This document shows, one piece after another, positions 52,150-59,389 of a DNA stretch of 64,000 nt. The notes below the pieces were generated by a model that searched no databases, was not told where the DNA came from, and saw only the letters and a list, made by a program, of their open reading frames with translations. Numbering within the stretch: position 1 is the first letter of the stretch; each line of letters starts with the position of its first letter. The position numbers were made by a program, and so were the translations under genes. Where the stretch lies: positions 1 to 64,000 of the forward strand of contig JAAZFC010000020.1 of the NCBI GenBank assembly GCA_012511955.1, in the 5' to 3' direction. Source of the stretch: Fibrobacter sp. (GTDB lineage: Bacteria > Fibrobacterota > Fibrobacteria > Fibrobacterales > Fibrobacteraceae).

Positions 52150-55100
52150 GTGTGGTTCTATAAAAAAATACTCTTAAGTTTTTTGTTGTTGCTGTGCAAT
52201 GCCAACGCTTTAATTGATTTTATGGAGCAATCTCAAAGCCTAAACTCTCATATTCAATATTTAAGCACAACTGCTGCTAAAGATTATAATGAGGCATTGA
52301 GTTATGATTCTAAAATTTGGAGTGAGACATCTTTTTTCAAGCCCATCCAAGAAGATTATTTTTATTGGGCAAAAGTAGATCTAAAATTAAAAGCAGGCTC
52401 GTATTATTTTGAAATAGTGCGTCCTTATTTAAAGGATTTTAAGCTTTTCGTATTAATAGAGCAACAGTTACAAGATTCAGTGGCGGCAAATCGTAGTTTA
52501 GATGCTAAAAAAAACACCTATGAACATTGGAGTTTTGTGCATGAAATTAAGGTAGAAAAAACTGAAAACATAACTTTATTGTTTAGATTCAAGGATCCGC
52601 ACAGTTTAACTTTGCCAATGAAGCTTTGGACGAAAAAAGCTTTTCATACTAATAATCATGAGCTTTCTCTTTTGTATGGTTTGTTAAGCGGCTTGATTAT
52701 TGGTATGGCTTTGCTTAGTTTTTTGTCATATTTAAACTTTAGAGATAAAACTTATTTTAACTACATATTTGTCATAATTTCCGCTGTGGCCTTTGTTGTT
52801 TTTTACAGTGGTTTTGGGACCAAGTACTTTATTCCTTCAGCTTGGGAAGAAAAACTCGGCTTTCTTCCTTTTTTACTCTTATTATTATTACTTGTATGTT
52901 TGGTAAGCTTTACTAGAGAATACGCCAAAACTGCTGAAAAACATCCTCTTTGGGACATGGTTTTAAAGTATTATAGTTACGGTTTGTTAGCAATTAGCTT
53001 TTTAGGAACGCTTTTTTCCCGTGCATTTATAATGAAGTTTGCAGCGTATTTCTCTTTAGTTGGTTTGTTGCTTTTTTTGTTACCGGGTATTCTTGTTAGA
53101 CGTAAAAACTCCAATTTTAATTGGTTGTTTTTTAGCTTATCGCCACCAATAATTGTTGGCCTTTTAATGACATTGCAGCGCGTTGGAGTTTTGAAAAATA
53201 ATTGGGTAGATGAAGATATATTATTTGTGAGTTTTTTTGCTAGTGTGGCTTTTATGGGGGTAAGGTTATCGCAAAATTTAAAAGTTATGTACGAGGAAAA
53301 CATTGTGCTTCAACAGGAAGTTGTGGAAAATTTAACCAAAGCAGACAAGCTTAAGGATTCATTTTTGGCAAATACCACCCATGAATTGAAAAAACCTTTA
53401 GATGCCATTATAAGTATGGTAGATAGTATGGGCGCTAGCGATGACAAAAAAAATAAAGATGATGTAGCTTTGAATTTGCATTTAATATCTACTTCAGGAC
53501 AAAGACTTTCAAGATTAATAGATGACATCGTTGATTACGCAGATCTGAAACAAGGGGGAATAACTCTAAGTTTTCAAGCTGTTTCCATAGACAAATGTTT
53601 AGATATGGTTTTACCAGTTTTAAAGCCTTTGGCGCAGAAGAAAAACTTAAAAATCATAAAAGATATTCCAGTGGATTTGCCTTTGGTAAAAGCGAGTTTT
53701 GAAAGATTGCAACAAGTTTTTTATAATCTCTTGGGGAATGCAATAAAATTTAGCGCCGAAGGTCGTATTGAAGTTAAAGCTAGAGTGCGCACAGATTCCA
53801 ATGTTGAAGTAAGTATAAAAGATTATGGCATAGGAATAGCACCAGAAAATCAAGCTCAGATATTTGAAATGTTTCAGCAAGTTGATGCTTCTATTTTTAG
53901 GACTTACGGAGGAACAGGAATTGGCTTAAGTATAGTGAATAGCTTAATAAAAGCCCACAATGGGAAAGTTTGGGTAAATTCCGAGTTAGGCAAAGGCTCA
54001 GTTTTTTCTTTTACCCTCGAACAAAGTTCAGAAAAAAAGTCCGAATTTAAAAAATTAGATTTTCAGCCAATGCATGTTAATGTTGATGATTCTCTTTGGC
54101 CTATAGCGGTGAAAAGCATAAATGATCAGGATAAGGGTACGATCTTGGTTGTGGATGATGATCAAATTAATTTGCAAGTACTGTTAAACCAGTTAATTGT
54201 TGAAGGTTACCAGGTTATTACAGCTTCTAATGGGCCTGATGCTTTGGAAATAGTTGAGTATGGAGATAAGCCTGATTTGATTTTACTCGATGTCATGATG
54301 CCTGGGATTTCAGGGTTTGATGTATGTGAGGCTGTGCGTTTAAAATATAACGCTTCGGTTTTACCAATAATTTTGTTGACTGCTAAAAACCAAGCCGCAG
54401 AGTTTTTAAAAGGCATGGAGTTGGGTGCTAATGATTTTTTGGCAAAACCTTTTTCTAAAATGGAGTTAATCTCGCGTATTAAAACTCATTTACAATTAAG
54501 TAAATTGCATAATTCCTATATGCGTTTTGTGCCCGCAGATTTTTTAAAGCAAATTAATTGTCAAAATATCGATGAGCTAAATTTGGGCAATCATTTAGAG
54601 AAGGAGTTGTCCATATTGGTGAGTGATATTCGTAATTTTTCTTTGTTTGCAGAAAAGTTAGAAGCCAAAACAGTGTTTGATATACTAAATAAATATTTAA
54701 ATAAAATAGTCCCTGTAATAAGAAAAAATAATGGTTTTATAATCAGGTTTGTAGGAGATGCTATAGTGGCTTTTTTCCCAGATGGAGCTGATTTAGCCAT
54801 GGCTACTGCAATTGAAATTAACAAAATCACTAAAGATTGGAAAACAATAAACCCTGTAAATCAAGAAGTTATTGAAATAGATGCGGGCATAGGTTTACAT
54901 TACGGTAAAGTGGTTTTGGGGACCATAGGCTTTGATAAACGCATGGATGCTGCGGCTATTTCCCATGATGTGGATAAAACTGTAGCTTTAGAGTCGTATA
55001 ACAAGTTATTTTTAAGTAACATACTTATTAGCGAAGAATTGTGGCAACAGTGTGATCAGAAAAGGTACAGAACTCAAACCATACAAAAACAGTCACCAGA

Positions 55101-55155
55101 ATTTCAAGTTATTATAAATGAAATTCGCGAATTATTAGGCTATACTGTTGTTTAG
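52150..55155 (+). CDS. 7TM sensor histidine kinase-REC-class III cyclase (C1-like half)
   Basis: A 1001-residue protein: signal peptide, extracytoplasmic 7TMR-DISM-type sensor (about 22-170), seven membrane helices (173-380), HisKA with His411 in THELKKPL, complete HATPase (NLLGNAIKFS, DYGIGI, GGTGIGLSIV), receiver with Asp714, and a class III cyclase domain (about 818-985). The cyclase keeps both metal-binding residues, Asp826 (SDIRNF) and Asp870 (FVGDA), but the substrate Lys is Arg866, the base-selecting residue is Ala935, the transition-state Asn is Asp942 and the Arg is Ala946. It therefore looks like a C1-type half that needs a partner; the paralogue at 56378 has the complementary set. 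HisKA position +4 is Lys instead of Thr, which predicts loss of phosphatase activity. GTG start. Overlaps or abuts three downstream genes. Confidence 0.88.
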   Translation: MWFYKKILLSFLLLLCNANALIDFMEQSQSLNSHIQYLSTTAAKDYNEALSYDSKIWSETSFFKPIQEDYFYWAKVDLKLKAGSYYFEIVRPYLKDFKLFVLIEQQLQDSVAANRSLDAKKNTYEHWSFVHEIKVEKTENITLLFRFKDPHSLTLPMKLWTKKAFHTNNHELSLLYGLLSGLIIGMALLSFLSYLNFRDKTYFNYIFVIISAVAFVVFYSGFGTKYFIPSAWEEKLGFLPFLLLLLLLVCLVSFTREYAKTAEKHPLWDMVLKYYSYGLLAISFLGTLFSRAFIMKFAAYFSLVGLLLFLLPGILVRRKNSNFNWLFFSLSPPIIVGLLMTLQRVGVLKNNWVDEDILFVSFFASVAFMGVRLSQNLKVMYEENIVLQQEVVENLTKADKLKDSFLANTTHELKKPLDAIISMVDSMGASDDKKNKDDVALNLHLISTSGQRLSRLIDDIVDYADLKQGGITLSFQAVSIDKCLDMVLPVLKPLAQKKNLKIIKDIPVDLPLVKASFERLQQVFYNLLGNAIKFSAEGRIEVKARVRTDSNVEVSIKDYGIGIAPENQAQIFEMFQQVDASIFRTYGGTGIGLSIVNSLIKAHNGKVWVNSELGKGSVFSFTLEQSSEKKSEFKKLDFQPMHVNVDDSLWPIAVKSINDQDKGTILVVDDDQINLQVLLNQLIVEGYQVITASNGPDALEIVEYGDKPDLILLDVMMPGISGFDVCEAVRLKYNASVLPIILLTAKNQAAEFLKGMELGANDFLAKPFSKMELISRIKTHLQLSKLHNSYMRFVPADFLKQINCQNIDELNLGNHLEKELSILVSDIRNFSLFAEKLEAKTVFDILNKYLNKIVPVIRKNNGFIIRFVGDAIVAFFPDGADLAMATAIEINKITKDWKTINPVNQEVIEIDAGIGLHYGKVVLGTIGFDKRMDAAAISHDVDKTVALESYNKLFLSNILISEELWQQCDQKRYRTQTIQKQSPEFQVIINEIRELLGYTVV

Positions 55156-55171
55156 TTTTAGAGGAGAAACT

Positions 55172-55729
55172 ATGAAAAAAATAACATTATTACTTAGTTT
55201 GGCATTAATTTATGTGTCGGCTCAAGAAATGGCGGTTACCGCATCGGGAAAACAGGTGGTGCTTCGCAATGATGGCGGTTGGGAATATTATGATCCCCAA
55301 AGACACTTGAATTTTAGAGATGTACGACAAACAGGACCCAAAATCTCTATTGAAATTCGTTATAAAGATTACCAATATTATTATGATGAAGTAAAAATGA
55401 TGCTCGAAGCTTTTGGGACATCCGAAAAAGAGTTACAAGATTCTTTGCAAAGAGTACCTAAAGGTGGAATTTTAATTTTGCAAACTCCTACAGTTGGTTT
55501 GAATCTCGATGATCCTCGACGCTATATTTATACTGTAAAAAGCTCTACAGGACAGGTGATTTTACAAAAAAAGGGCTCTGAGGCTGATGCAGTAGCTGCC
55601 GATCAAGCAGGTTTGTCAGATTTAGCTGTTTTAGAATTAAAATCCGCTCCCAAAGGTGATATTATTGTCGTGGTCAAAGATCTTACCACAGATATGGATT
55701 TTGAATATACCATACCCATAAGGAATTAA
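55172..55729 (+). CDS. Secreted hypothetical protein (DUF3157-like start)
   Basis: A 185-residue periplasmic protein with signal peptide (cleavage near VSAQ-E). The mature N-terminus VTASGKQVVLRNDGGWEYYD is a short beta motif seen in many secreted proteins of unknown function (DUF3157-like). The rest has no recognised fold. I start at the ATG 55172, which has GAGGAG six bases upstream. It sits 16 bases after the first sensor cyclase and one base before the esterase gene, so it could be an extracytoplasmic partner of the sensors. Confidence 0.68.
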   Translation: MKKITLLLSLALIYVSAQEMAVTASGKQVVLRNDGGWEYYDPQRHLNFRDVRQTGPKISIEIRYKDYQYYYDEVKMMLEAFGTSEKELQDSLQRVPKGGILILQTPTVGLNLDDPRRYIYTVKSSTGQVILQKKGSEADAVAADQAGLSDLAVLELKSAPKGDIIVVVKDLTTDMDFEYTIPIRN

Positions 55730-55730
55730 T

Positions 55731-56375
55731 ATGTTAGAATTTATAAGTTCACAAAATGCAGAAAACCCTGAATTTGCCGTAGTTTGGCTTCATGGTCTAG
55801 GTGCAGATGGCCATGATTTTGAGTCTATTGTGCACGAGTTAGAGTTATCGGAGCAAGCTAAGATAAAGTTTATTTTTCCCCATGCGCCTATTATGCCTGT
55901 AACTATTAATGGCGGAATGAAAATGCGCGCATGGTACGATATTGCTTATGCGGATCTTGGCTCAAAGCCAGATTTAAATGGAATTGTTAATAGCGCCAAG
56001 TTAATTCAAGAAATTTTAGATGATTTGCTAAAGCAAGGCTTTACTAGGGAAAAATGCTTTGTAGTAGGATTCAGTCAAGGAGGTGCGGTGGCTCTGCATC
56101 TGGCCACTGAAGAAAAACTTGCTGGAGTGGTGGCATTGTCTAGCTATGGTCCGACTTTGACAAATGCCAAGGAAATCAAGACGGAGAATATATGGCTAGG
56201 TCATGGTTCTTTTGATGGAGTGGTTCCCCCTGTTTTAGGTGAAAATACAGTAAAAGAACTGGAGCGTTTAGGTGTTGTTGTTCCCTTAAATACTTATCCT
56301 ATGCAACATTCCGTTTGTCTAGAAGAATTGTCAGATTTATCGCAATGGTTTAATAGGTCAGTGGCTGGTACCTAG
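55731..56375 (+). CDS. Alpha/beta-hydrolase, acyl-protein-thioesterase/carboxylesterase type
   Basis: A 214-residue cytoplasmic esterase of the phospholipase/carboxylesterase family (Abhydrolase_2). It has VVWLHGLGADGHDF (oxyanion region), nucleophile Ser115 in GFSQGG, Asp162 in GSFDGVVP and His193 in MQHSVC, in the usual order and spacing. Family members hydrolyse short acyl esters or thioesters. Its last base is the first of a GTG-ATG pair that opens the second sensor cyclase, placing a soluble esterase between two sensor paralogues in one operon. The reason for the pairing is unknown. Confidence 0.88.
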   Translation: MLEFISSQNAENPEFAVVWLHGLGADGHDFESIVHELELSEQAKIKFIFPHAPIMPVTINGGMKMRAWYDIAYADLGSKPDLNGIVNSAKLIQEILDDLLKQGFTREKCFVVGFSQGGAVALHLATEEKLAGVVALSSYGPTLTNAKEIKTENIWLGHGSFDGVVPPVLGENTVKELERLGVVVPLNTYPMQHSVCLEELSDLSQWFNRSVAGT

Positions 56376-56377
56376 TG

Positions 56378-58981
56378 ATGCGTTTTTTTTTAACCCTATT
56401 GTTGTGTTTAGCAGGGGGGCAGTCAGTCTTTGCTGCCCCTGTAGTTTTGGAAGCTGATTTTGAGAGGGTTCATGTCTCTAAATTTTTAAAAGTTGCCATA
56501 GACACAAATGCTAATTTAGGGTTAAAAGAAGCTTTATCTGGGGACTTAAACTTTGAACCTTCTCAAAAAGATATACCCTCTTGGGGCTTTCGCTCTTATG
56601 CAGTGTGGGCTTATTTAGATATATCAACAATGGACTTCGCTGGAAAATCTATGTTAGAAATAGATATGCCACTTTTAGACAAAGTTGATTTTTGGTTACT
56701 TCAAGGAGATTCTTTAATATCAGAAGTTAATACGGGCTATAGTTATCCATTTAAAAATAGACCCATTAAACATCGAAATTTTGTTTTTGAAATTCCGCCG
56801 TCTGTTAATAAAGATTATAGAGTTTTTATACGAATAAAAAGCATAGATAGATTAGAACTGCCCGTCATTCTTTGGGAAGAAACCGCTTTTTATCAGGCAG
56901 ATCAAAAAGAGCAGTTTTTTTCTTGGGTGTTTATGGGCTTGGTTTTAGGTTCCATTTTTCTTTTAGCACTGATGTTTATTGCTTTTAGGGATAAAGCTTA
57001 TTTGTATTATGCTTTTTTTATGTCCTTTTTTATAATTTTTATTGCGGGGCAGATGGGGTATGTTCACGAATACTTGTGGCCTGACTTTTTAGCGGGCTTA
57101 AACCATTATATGCATTTGTGCATTTTATGCATGCTGTTGTTTCAAGTTTTACTAATTACGAAGTTTTTAGATTCAAAAAATGAGATTCCAAAGCTACATG
57201 TAGTTTTAAAAATTTTGCTTTTCTATTTATTTGCTCTTTTTGCCTTAACCTTTGTCTTACCTTTAAATGTTTCTTTGATTTTAGCTGTGGCTTCGGTGAT
57301 TTTAGTTATGGGCACAATTTTTATGGTGTCGCTATATGCCTCTTCACGCTCTAAAGCTGCTTGGCTTTTTATGTTGGGATGGGGAGTAACCATAGTTGTG
57401 GGAATCCTGTATTCATTAAAGTCTTTTGGTGCAGTGCCTTATGATTGGGCACCCACGCAACTTTTATCTGGACCGTGGTTGTTGCAAATCATTATCTTGT
57501 CACTGAGCTTGGGCGAAAGGCTTACACAGACTCGCCTCAAAAAAGAAGAGTGGCAAAGAGAAGCCATTGAAAATTTAAAACGAGCCAACATAAAAAAAGA
57601 TGAGTTTTTAGCTACCACTTCTCACGAATTGAGAACACCATTAAATGGTATGATTGGGTTGTCTGAGTCTCTTTTAGACGGTGCGGCGGGAAATATTTCC
57701 CAAGAGAAATCTGAGAAATTAACCATGATTGTCGCTAGCTGTAGGCGTTTGGCTAATTTAGTCAATGATATTTTAGATCTATCTCAATACAACAACAAAG
57801 AACTGGATATAAAGCAAAATGCGGTGGATATTTCTCAAATTATAACAATGATGGTAGATATTCATCGACCTTTATCAGAGCAAAAAAATAACGAAATAAA
57901 ATTAATCTTTCACACAACCCTGCCTTTTGTGCTTGGTGACGAAGATAGAATACAACAAATTTTAAGCAATATTTTGAGTAATGCTATACGCTACACTGAT
58001 AATGGAATTATAACTGTGTCTGCATATACAGAAGACGTATGGATAAAAGTTTGCGTGCAAGATACGGGTGTGGGTATAGAAGCAAAGAATTTAAGCAGTT
58101 TGTTATCAGAAGATATAGACATAGATAACTCGCAGCGTCATAGTTTTATGGGTTTGAATTTATGCAAAAAAATTGTTGAACTGCACGGAGGAGAAATAAG
58201 TGTTGACTCTGAAATAAATCGAGGCTCAGAATTTTGCTTTACTCTTCCCATAGCCCAATTTGAGCGGGATTCAAAAGAAATAAATGTTCCTACAGTTACA
58301 AAATTACAACATTCAGAAAGTTTTTTAGCTATTGATTCTATTAGTTTTGCTAATGAAAAACAAAATTCTCATATATTAGTTGTTGATGATGAGCTAGTTA
58401 ATATTAAGTCTTTAAAAGAACAGCTAATCAAATATGATTTTAGGGTTAGTTCAGTAAGGAGTGGGGCCCAAGCCCTTGCATTTTTAGATAAATATCCAGT
58501 GCCAGATCTAATTTTGCTAGATGTGATGATGCCAGGAATGTCTGGCTTTGAAGTATGTAAAAAGATTAGAGAGAAATGGGATTTAAGTGTACTTCCAGTG
58601 ATTATGTTAACCACCAATAACCAAGTTACTGATTTAGTGGCTGGGTTAGACTCAGGTGCTAATGATTACTTGACTAAACCTTTTAATAATTATGAGCTAT
58701 TAGCGCGGGTAAATACGCATTTAGGCTTGACTAGAACAAACAACAATTATGCGCGATTTGTACCTCAACAATTTATACAACGCCTTAATAAAAACACCAT
58801 ATTAGATGTGCAATTAGGTGATTATGTTAAACAAAATATGTCAGTTTTCTTTTTAAGTGTTAAAAATTATGATAAACTTTCCCAGGCTATGAATATAGAA
58901 GAGAATTTTAACTTTTTAAATTCGTATTTACAACGCATAACCCCTTGTATAGAAGATTATTGCGGAGTGATCGATAAATAG
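56378..58981 (+). CDS. 7TM sensor histidine kinase-REC-class III cyclase (C2-like half), interrupted by TAG
   Basis: An 867-residue product as read, ending at TAG (58979-58981); the same frame stays open to 59389. Layout matches the protein at 52150: signal peptide, sensor domain, seven membrane helices (about 188-395), HisKA with canonical SHELRTPL (His416), HATPase, receiver with Asp715, then a cyclase domain cut in its first third. The HATPase lid is degenerate: the G2 box reads SFMGLNL (589-595). In the cyclase domain the first metal Asp is Ser827, and Lys867 of the substrate site is the last residue before the stop. I take the ATG at 56378; GTG at 56375 overlaps the esterase stop. Confidence 0.82.
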   Translation: MRFFLTLLLCLAGGQSVFAAPVVLEADFERVHVSKFLKVAIDTNANLGLKEALSGDLNFEPSQKDIPSWGFRSYAVWAYLDISTMDFAGKSMLEIDMPLLDKVDFWLLQGDSLISEVNTGYSYPFKNRPIKHRNFVFEIPPSVNKDYRVFIRIKSIDRLELPVILWEETAFYQADQKEQFFSWVFMGLVLGSIFLLALMFIAFRDKAYLYYAFFMSFFIIFIAGQMGYVHEYLWPDFLAGLNHYMHLCILCMLLFQVLLITKFLDSKNEIPKLHVVLKILLFYLFALFALTFVLPLNVSLILAVASVILVMGTIFMVSLYASSRSKAAWLFMLGWGVTIVVGILYSLKSFGAVPYDWAPTQLLSGPWLLQIIILSLSLGERLTQTRLKKEEWQREAIENLKRANIKKDEFLATTSHELRTPLNGMIGLSESLLDGAAGNISQEKSEKLTMIVASCRRLANLVNDILDLSQYNNKELDIKQNAVDISQIITMMVDIHRPLSEQKNNEIKLIFHTTLPFVLGDEDRIQQILSNILSNAIRYTDNGIITVSAYTEDVWIKVCVQDTGVGIEAKNLSSLLSEDIDIDNSQRHSFMGLNLCKKIVELHGGEISVDSEINRGSEFCFTLPIAQFERDSKEINVPTVTKLQHSESFLAIDSISFANEKQNSHILVVDDELVNIKSLKEQLIKYDFRVSSVRSGAQALAFLDKYPVPDLILLDVMMPGMSGFEVCKKIREKWDLSVLPVIMLTTNNQVTDLVAGLDSGANDYLTKPFNNYELLARVNTHLGLTRTNNNYARFVPQQFIQRLNKNTILDVQLGDYVKQNMSVFFLSVKNYDKLSQAMNIEENFNFLNSYLQRITPCIEDYCGVIDK

Positions 58982-58996
58982 ACAGGCAATGGAATA

Positions 58997-59389
58997 ATGG
59001 CACTGATTCCGAATGATTCAAATGATGCCTTAAAAGCTGCTTTAAAAGTGATGGAAAAAGGCAGGGTTTATAATATCCATCGCGCTCAAATCGGATATAA
59101 ACCAGTTCAGTTGAGTATAGGGGTACATTATGGACCATTGATGTTGGGAACCATTGGAGAAAGTTCTCGTATGGATGTTACGGTGATAGCCGATGCGGTA
59201 AATGTAGCTTCTAGAGTTGAAGAGCTTAACAAAGCGCATGGCTCAAGCATATTAATAACCAGAGCTATTTACGATAATTTAAAGACAACTTTTAAAAAAG
59301 CATGTCAATCTCTAGGTGAGCAAGAAATTAGAGGCAGGAAAAATAAAATAGAAGTTTATAAAATTAAAACTGACGCTAATTTGAGTTAA
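58997..59389 (+). pseudogene. 3' part of the C2-like cyclase domain, downstream of the in-frame TAG
   Basis: The frame of the 56378 gene continues without a break after the TAG; counted through it, the sequence reads Thr869-Gly870-Asn871, then MALIP, and the domain runs to residue 1003. The second metal Asp is replaced by Asn871, but Thr935 (base selection), Asn942 and Arg946 (transition state, VNVASR) are intact and well conserved. The first ATG after the stop is 58997, 15 bases on, so a separate 130-residue fragment could be made by reinitiation. Its stop shares TTAA with the convergent pentapeptide-repeat gene. Confidence 0.65.

Follow-up and report, generated by a model that had tools for sequence, protein, structure and literature searches.

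In mammalian adenylyl cyclase the metal-binding aspartates of the catalytic site come from one cyclase domain and the lysine, the base-selecting residue, the asparagine, the arginine and Lys1065 from the other; these C1 and C2 domains are fused in one chain, and the dead site binds forskolin. Soluble guanylate cyclase splits its site between separate homologous genes, with the alpha subunit supplying two Asp residues and the beta subunit Asn548, Arg552 and Lys593 (PMC3591389). It is a eukaryotic, GTP-selective enzyme, with Glu and Cys replacing the Lys and Asp, and its sensor is an H-NOX domain. Prokaryotic class III cyclases have been described as typically homodimers (PMC4886424), and searches of the open-access literature by title, abstract and term, a body of work outside which most subscription journals lie, returned no bacterial obligate heterodimeric class III cyclase. 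In the CyaC-like proteins of cyanobacteria and spirochaetes, histidine kinase, receiver and class III cyclase domains follow one another.

Here we analyse a stretch of 64,000 nucleotides from a Fibrobacter sp. genome (GCA_012511955.1, contig JAAZFC010000020.1; hereafter the window) that holds two related genes, A and B, whose cyclase domains retain complementary parts of one class III site. As in the mammalian enzyme, the metal-binding residues are found in one domain, that of A, and the remainder, including the Lys1065 equivalent, in the other, and as in soluble guanylate cyclase the halves lie in separate homologous genes. Unlike C1 and C2, A and B are two genes with a seven-transmembrane (7TM), kinase and receiver input, one of which carries a stop codon. 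The parallel with C1/C2, which had been drawn from the letters of this DNA only (the sequence-only reading), holds for the division of labour but not for a fused pseudo-heterodimer.

Results

A and B are the outer members of four co-directional genes that overlap or adjoin one another at 52150-59389 and enclose a 193-residue protein and an esterase (Table 1). The two proteins share one Pfam domain order, 7TMR-DISMED2, 7TMR-DISM_7TM, HisKA, HATPase_c, receiver and cyclase. Residues of B are numbered from an alternative ATG start at 56378. The small protein between A and the esterase, for which a Pfam search at E<=1 returned no match, occupies the same place in the orthologous locus described below (L035:7634-8215) and may act together with the A and B sensors in the periplasm. 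A scan for promoters and terminators gave a signal no greater than in shuffled sequences.

Table 1. Features of the A/B locus, in positions of the window.
Feature	Position	Strand	Basis
Protein A, 1001 aa: 7TMR-DISMED2, 7TMR-DISM_7TM, HisKA, HATPase_c, receiver, class III cyclase domain	52150..55155	+	Six Pfam matches, all above cut-off
Cyclase domain of A, metal half retained, base/transition-state half gone	54505..55152	+	Alignments, AlphaFold2, Foldseek
Conserved protein, 193 aa, probable signal peptide, no Pfam family	55148..55729	+	44% identity to G010 counterpart
Phospholipase/carboxylesterase (Abhydrolase_2), 214 aa	55731..56375	+	Pfam PF02230, E=7e-42; same place in G010
Protein B as annotated, 868 aa from GTG: 7TMR-DISMED2, 7TM, HisKA, HATPase, receiver, partial cyclase domain to Lys867	56375..58981	+	Pfam
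In-frame TAG in B	58979..58981	+	Codon alignment: B' has TAT (Tyr)
Remainder of B cyclase domain, same frame: Asn871, Thr935, Asn942, Arg946, Lys1065-equivalent Arg	58982..59389	+	PF00211, E=1.4e-13 on this piece alone

The sole orthologous pair found, A' and B', lies in G010, an uncultured Fibrobacteres MAG of the same family (Loclat_bin-05108, CAIRAY010000187.1). Architecture and gene order match those of the window, with A', the 193-residue protein, the esterase and B' followed by a pentapeptide protein, a Sua5 family member and a UPF0102 protein. In a tree of the cyclase domains A groups with A' and B with B' (SH-aLRT 98 and 95; long-branch warnings apply), which makes the duplication older than the split of the two lineages. 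The terminal branches measure 4.15 for A, 1.87 for B and 0.31 for B'.

At the six catalytic positions A has Asp826, Arg866, Asp870, Ala935, Asp942 and Ala946, and B, counted as read through its stop codon, has Ser827, Lys867, Asn871, Thr935, Asn942 and Arg946. Written in the order first metal, second metal, lysine, base, asparagine, arginine, the states are DDRADA in A, SNKTNR in B, DDKTGL in A' and DDKTNR in B'. A MAFFT alignment and the family HMM agreed on this register, and the A' and B' domains were also placed by phmmer against two cyclases of solved structure, Pseudomonas aeruginosa CyaB and Cya2; together with the translations they bear out the assignment made in the sequence-only reading, with no position mis-registered. 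Neither A nor B holds all six residues; A has kept the metal half, and B the base/transition-state half. The positions lost in A, A' and B are all dispensable for one A-B site, and the Lys and the Asp that lie four residues apart in one hairpin have met opposite fates in A and B. Both domains are recognised by the class III profile PF00211 (A 33.1 bits, B read through 60.5 bits; cut-off 21.9). In CyaC-type enzymes Lys plus Thr go with ATP, and by this analogy it is reasonable to predict ATP as the substrate of a composite A-B site.

The split extends beyond the six residues. It recurs at two further substrate-contact sites: the phosphate-loop positions F400 and T401 (Phe/Thr; F,S in A and Y,D in B), and the Lys1065 equivalent (Gln in A, Ala in A', Arg in both B and B'). 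An Arg of position 4, tentatively mapped, is present in all four proteins. The roles of the eight active-site positions were taken from PMC3591389. Scored against a profile of 98 family domains, among which canonical ones were chosen, so that conservation in 98 of 98 is partly by construction, the metal strand gives 29.3 in A, 40.4 in A', 4.0 in B and 54.4 in B' (family 55.7, sd 3.9), and the base/transition-state segment gives 4.2, 13.0, 56.6 and 58.8 bits in the same order (family 66.1, sd 5.2). Erosion is thus reciprocal and segment-wide, along half-sites. The base/transition-state segment of B is less eroded than 175 of the 196 windows in B.

Six losses that all fall within the six expendable of 12 positions have a chance of 1/924, and the four losses later than the A/A' split a chance of 1/210; both figures wrongly assume independence between positions and overstate the case because residues within one half-site go together. 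A circular-shift test of joint reciprocity on whole-segment profile scores gave 226 of 45,369 (about 0.5%). Counting conserved columns in a Fisher test yielded no significant result (p 0.13 joint, 0.07 for B).

The TAG in B is the codon directly after Lys867, so that the annotated protein ends before Asn871, Thr935, Asn942 and Arg946. It is one base away from a Tyr codon. The 135 codons beyond it are open in the same frame and retain their codon-position composition, and no second stop or frameshift was detected in B. Identity between B and B' within the cyclase domain is 54% ahead of the TAG and 42% past it. Reassignment of TAG was considered and rejected, since TAG is an ordinary stop here, ending 12 of the 59 listed open reading frames of the window (B itself among the 12), and no PylS scored above the cut-off. 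The sequence-only reading knew of this codon and gave it no weight in treating B as a usable half-site; the cyclase domain of B is interrupted, and only one partner is encoded intact. Either the nonsense codon arose very recently, or it is peculiar to the strain, or it reflects an error of assembly. Judged by the present assembly, B stops before most of its half-site, and an A-B pair would make nothing.

With an alignment of relatives as input, AlphaFold2 predicts the cyclase domain of A at pLDDT 91.5 and pTM 0.88 and that of B, with the TAG read as Tyr, at pLDDT 90.1. The top Foldseek matches of the predicted domains are the class III cyclases OaPAC, CyaB, Cya2, bPAC and CyaC, so that the class III fold is predicted for both; the input alignments consist mostly of complete relatives, and the predictions therefore speak to compatibility with the fold, not to activity.

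In A the H, N, G1 and G2 motifs of the kinase and the Asp and Lys of the receiver are all intact. B has lost the ATP lid and G2 box of its kinase (GGTG is absent, and HSFMGLNL stands where GGTGLGLS is expected), keeping the His and an intact receiver; the kinases of A, A' and B' retain the G2 box. By Pfam domains both proteins carry sensor, 7TM region, kinase and receiver, as proposed, but the kinase of B has no ATP lid. Kinase activity, too, may be divided between the two: the intact kinase of A and the retained His of B suggest that A probably phosphorylates B in trans. Relative to B', the branch of B is 6.9 times as long in the receiver and 9.4 times as long in the cyclase domain, compared with 0.46 times in the sensor and 0.80 times in the 7TM region, a distribution that also fits relaxed constraint.

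A scan across the genome contigs with A alone returned no relative. A scan with the four cyclase domains retrieved G010 and 79 other loci, none with the split, and in a phylum-wide search with B' (168 genomes) and a search of relatives with A (61) the pair was found only here and in G010. DDKTNR dominates the retrieved loci (115 domain matches, duplicates included), and, with the exception of A, A' and B, every complete domain among them has retained both metal Asp as well as Asn and Arg; the 80 loci were ranked by similarity to the complete B', so this sample is biased towards complete relatives. The other cyclases of the window's genome are DDKTNR and DDQANR, the latter (G000:C76, L037 4890-6071) with Gln and Ala at the lysine and base positions; A alone has the metal half only. 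Five matches to cNMP-binding domains in the same genome mark proteins that could read the product. Separately, in Fibrobacter genomes five PF00211 matches (L041-L045) score above 190 bits, far above the rest, and each was flagged with one TAG inside, which may only be the terminal stop.

The nearest cyclase domains outside the pair are those of the CyaC-like proteins, with at most 58% identity to B'. Tandem pairs of kinase-receiver-class III cyclase genes occur in Oscillatoriales and relatives (L100, L102, L105, L106), an independent tandem arrangement without degeneration. They were considered as a second split pair and rejected: unlike in A and B, both copies have the full DDKTNR set, and in place of 7TMR-DISM they carry a dCache-HAMP sensor (L100, L102).

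The strict split is also confined to this genome when it is set against its ortholog. A' has both Asp, the Lys and the Thr and, like A, is without the Asn and Arg, whereas B' has all six residues in an uninterrupted frame. Loss of the Lys and Thr in A and of both Asp in B belongs to the window lineage only, and the complete B' means that the strict split is not ancestral. B' could, from its residues, act as a homodimer, and an A'-B' pairing would not be obligatory in G010. Conservation of the split in orthologous pairs is thus contradicted by the one pair available, in which B' keeps both Asp, an outcome that the sequence-only reading had itself named as counting against it. Its proposal of complementary half-sites in A and B is strengthened by the additional residues, the reciprocal erosion and the predicted folds, and its interpretation as a whole is supported in part.

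Discussion

The reading towards which we lean slightly is that a duplication was followed by loss of one half-site in A and then of the other in B, giving an obligate heterodimer; the nonsense codon of B would be a later addition, recent or spurious. A and B would be tandem-duplicated membrane hybrid sensor kinases in which a C-terminal class III cyclase domain is under the control of the receiver, both copies having been complete after the duplication. The Asn/Arg half-site of A would have been lost before the window lineage and G010 parted, after which the one way for A to take part in a working site would have been to provide the metal half of a site shared with B. The window lineage would then have seen A lose its Lys and Thr, and B both metal Asp and the phosphate-loop residues. 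The outcome would be one composite site, with metals bound by A and the Lys, Thr, Asn and Arg contributed by B, converting ATP to cAMP in an A-B heterodimer. Ligand at one or both periplasmic DISMED2 domains would act through the 7TM region and the kinase; the kinase of A would phosphorylate itself and possibly the His of B in trans, and phosphorylation of the receivers would set the geometry of the C-terminal domains. In favour of this course of events we count the restriction of all losses to positions that an A-B site can spare, the additional residues that follow the split, the reciprocal segment scores with the circular-shift result, the grouping of A with A' and B with B' in the tree, the intermediate state shown by G010, the gene order, the folds, the composition past the TAG and the five cNMP-binding matches. 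Against it stand the TAG itself, the complete B', the long receiver and cyclase branches of B, the drop in identity from 54% to 42%, the restriction to two loci and the Fisher test.

Alternatively, both cyclase domains would be vestigial, A having become a pseudo-cyclase early and B having decayed in the window lineage before acquiring its nonsense codon. The complementarity would then be coincidental, and the pair would now serve as hybrid histidine kinases. This main rival, which we regard as possible if rather improbable, accommodates the TAG, the faster change of the cytoplasmic domains of B and its degenerate kinase lid, the long cyclase end branches of A and B beside the short one of B', and the Fisher result; moreover, where the losses in each protein take a whole half together, the halves will be opposite ones in half of cases. 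It fits poorly with a base/transition-state segment in B that still scores 57 bits against 66 in the family and is more mildly eroded than 175 of 196 windows, with the lack of any further stop or frameshift in B, with the confidently predicted folds, and with the opposite fates of Lys and Asp within one hairpin. That the Asn/Arg segment of B has stayed near family level despite the loss of its metal site is best understood if B has a partner. The half kept by B is useless without a metal supplier, and A is the only cyclase of the genome that has the metal half only, which argues against plain decay.

A complete B' on a short branch and an A' already without Asn and Arg are what one would see if A were a regulatory pseudo-cyclase of a B homodimer, with B the sole catalyst, since dead here, and an A-B site never the working one. 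We think this distinctly unlikely, as it leaves unexplained both why A and A' kept the two metal Asp while losing the opposite face and why the Asn/Arg face of B survived the loss of both Asp. A variant of the heterodimer reading differs only over the stop codon, which would be a draft artefact, a strain variant or a codon that is read through, leaving B full length and the heterodimer functional today. The single base that separates the TAG from the TAT of B' and the 135 open downstream codons with coding composition speak for it, but this genome uses TAG as an ordinary stop and no PylS exceeded the cut-off; we entertain the variant tentatively. On balance an obligate heterodimer, either former or dependent on the strain, is plausible at this locus, and G010 provides an informative intermediate, but the pair is not a demonstrated bacterial C1/C2 enzyme.

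We hold it doubtful, if conceivable, that A and B form a living obligate heterodimeric adenylyl cyclase built from two separately encoded full-length 7TM hybrid sensor kinases, with half of the active site in each and kinase activity in one partner only, the two sensors acting as a coincidence detector and G010 preserving the intermediate. The stop codon is a warning that function read from six residues can overlook a broken gene. Of equal weight, a pair standing between a complete homodimer, as B' could form in G010, and a split site, as in A and B, would be a natural bacterial parallel to the evolution, in mammalian adenylyl cyclase and in soluble guanylate cyclase, of a single working site beside a dead one.
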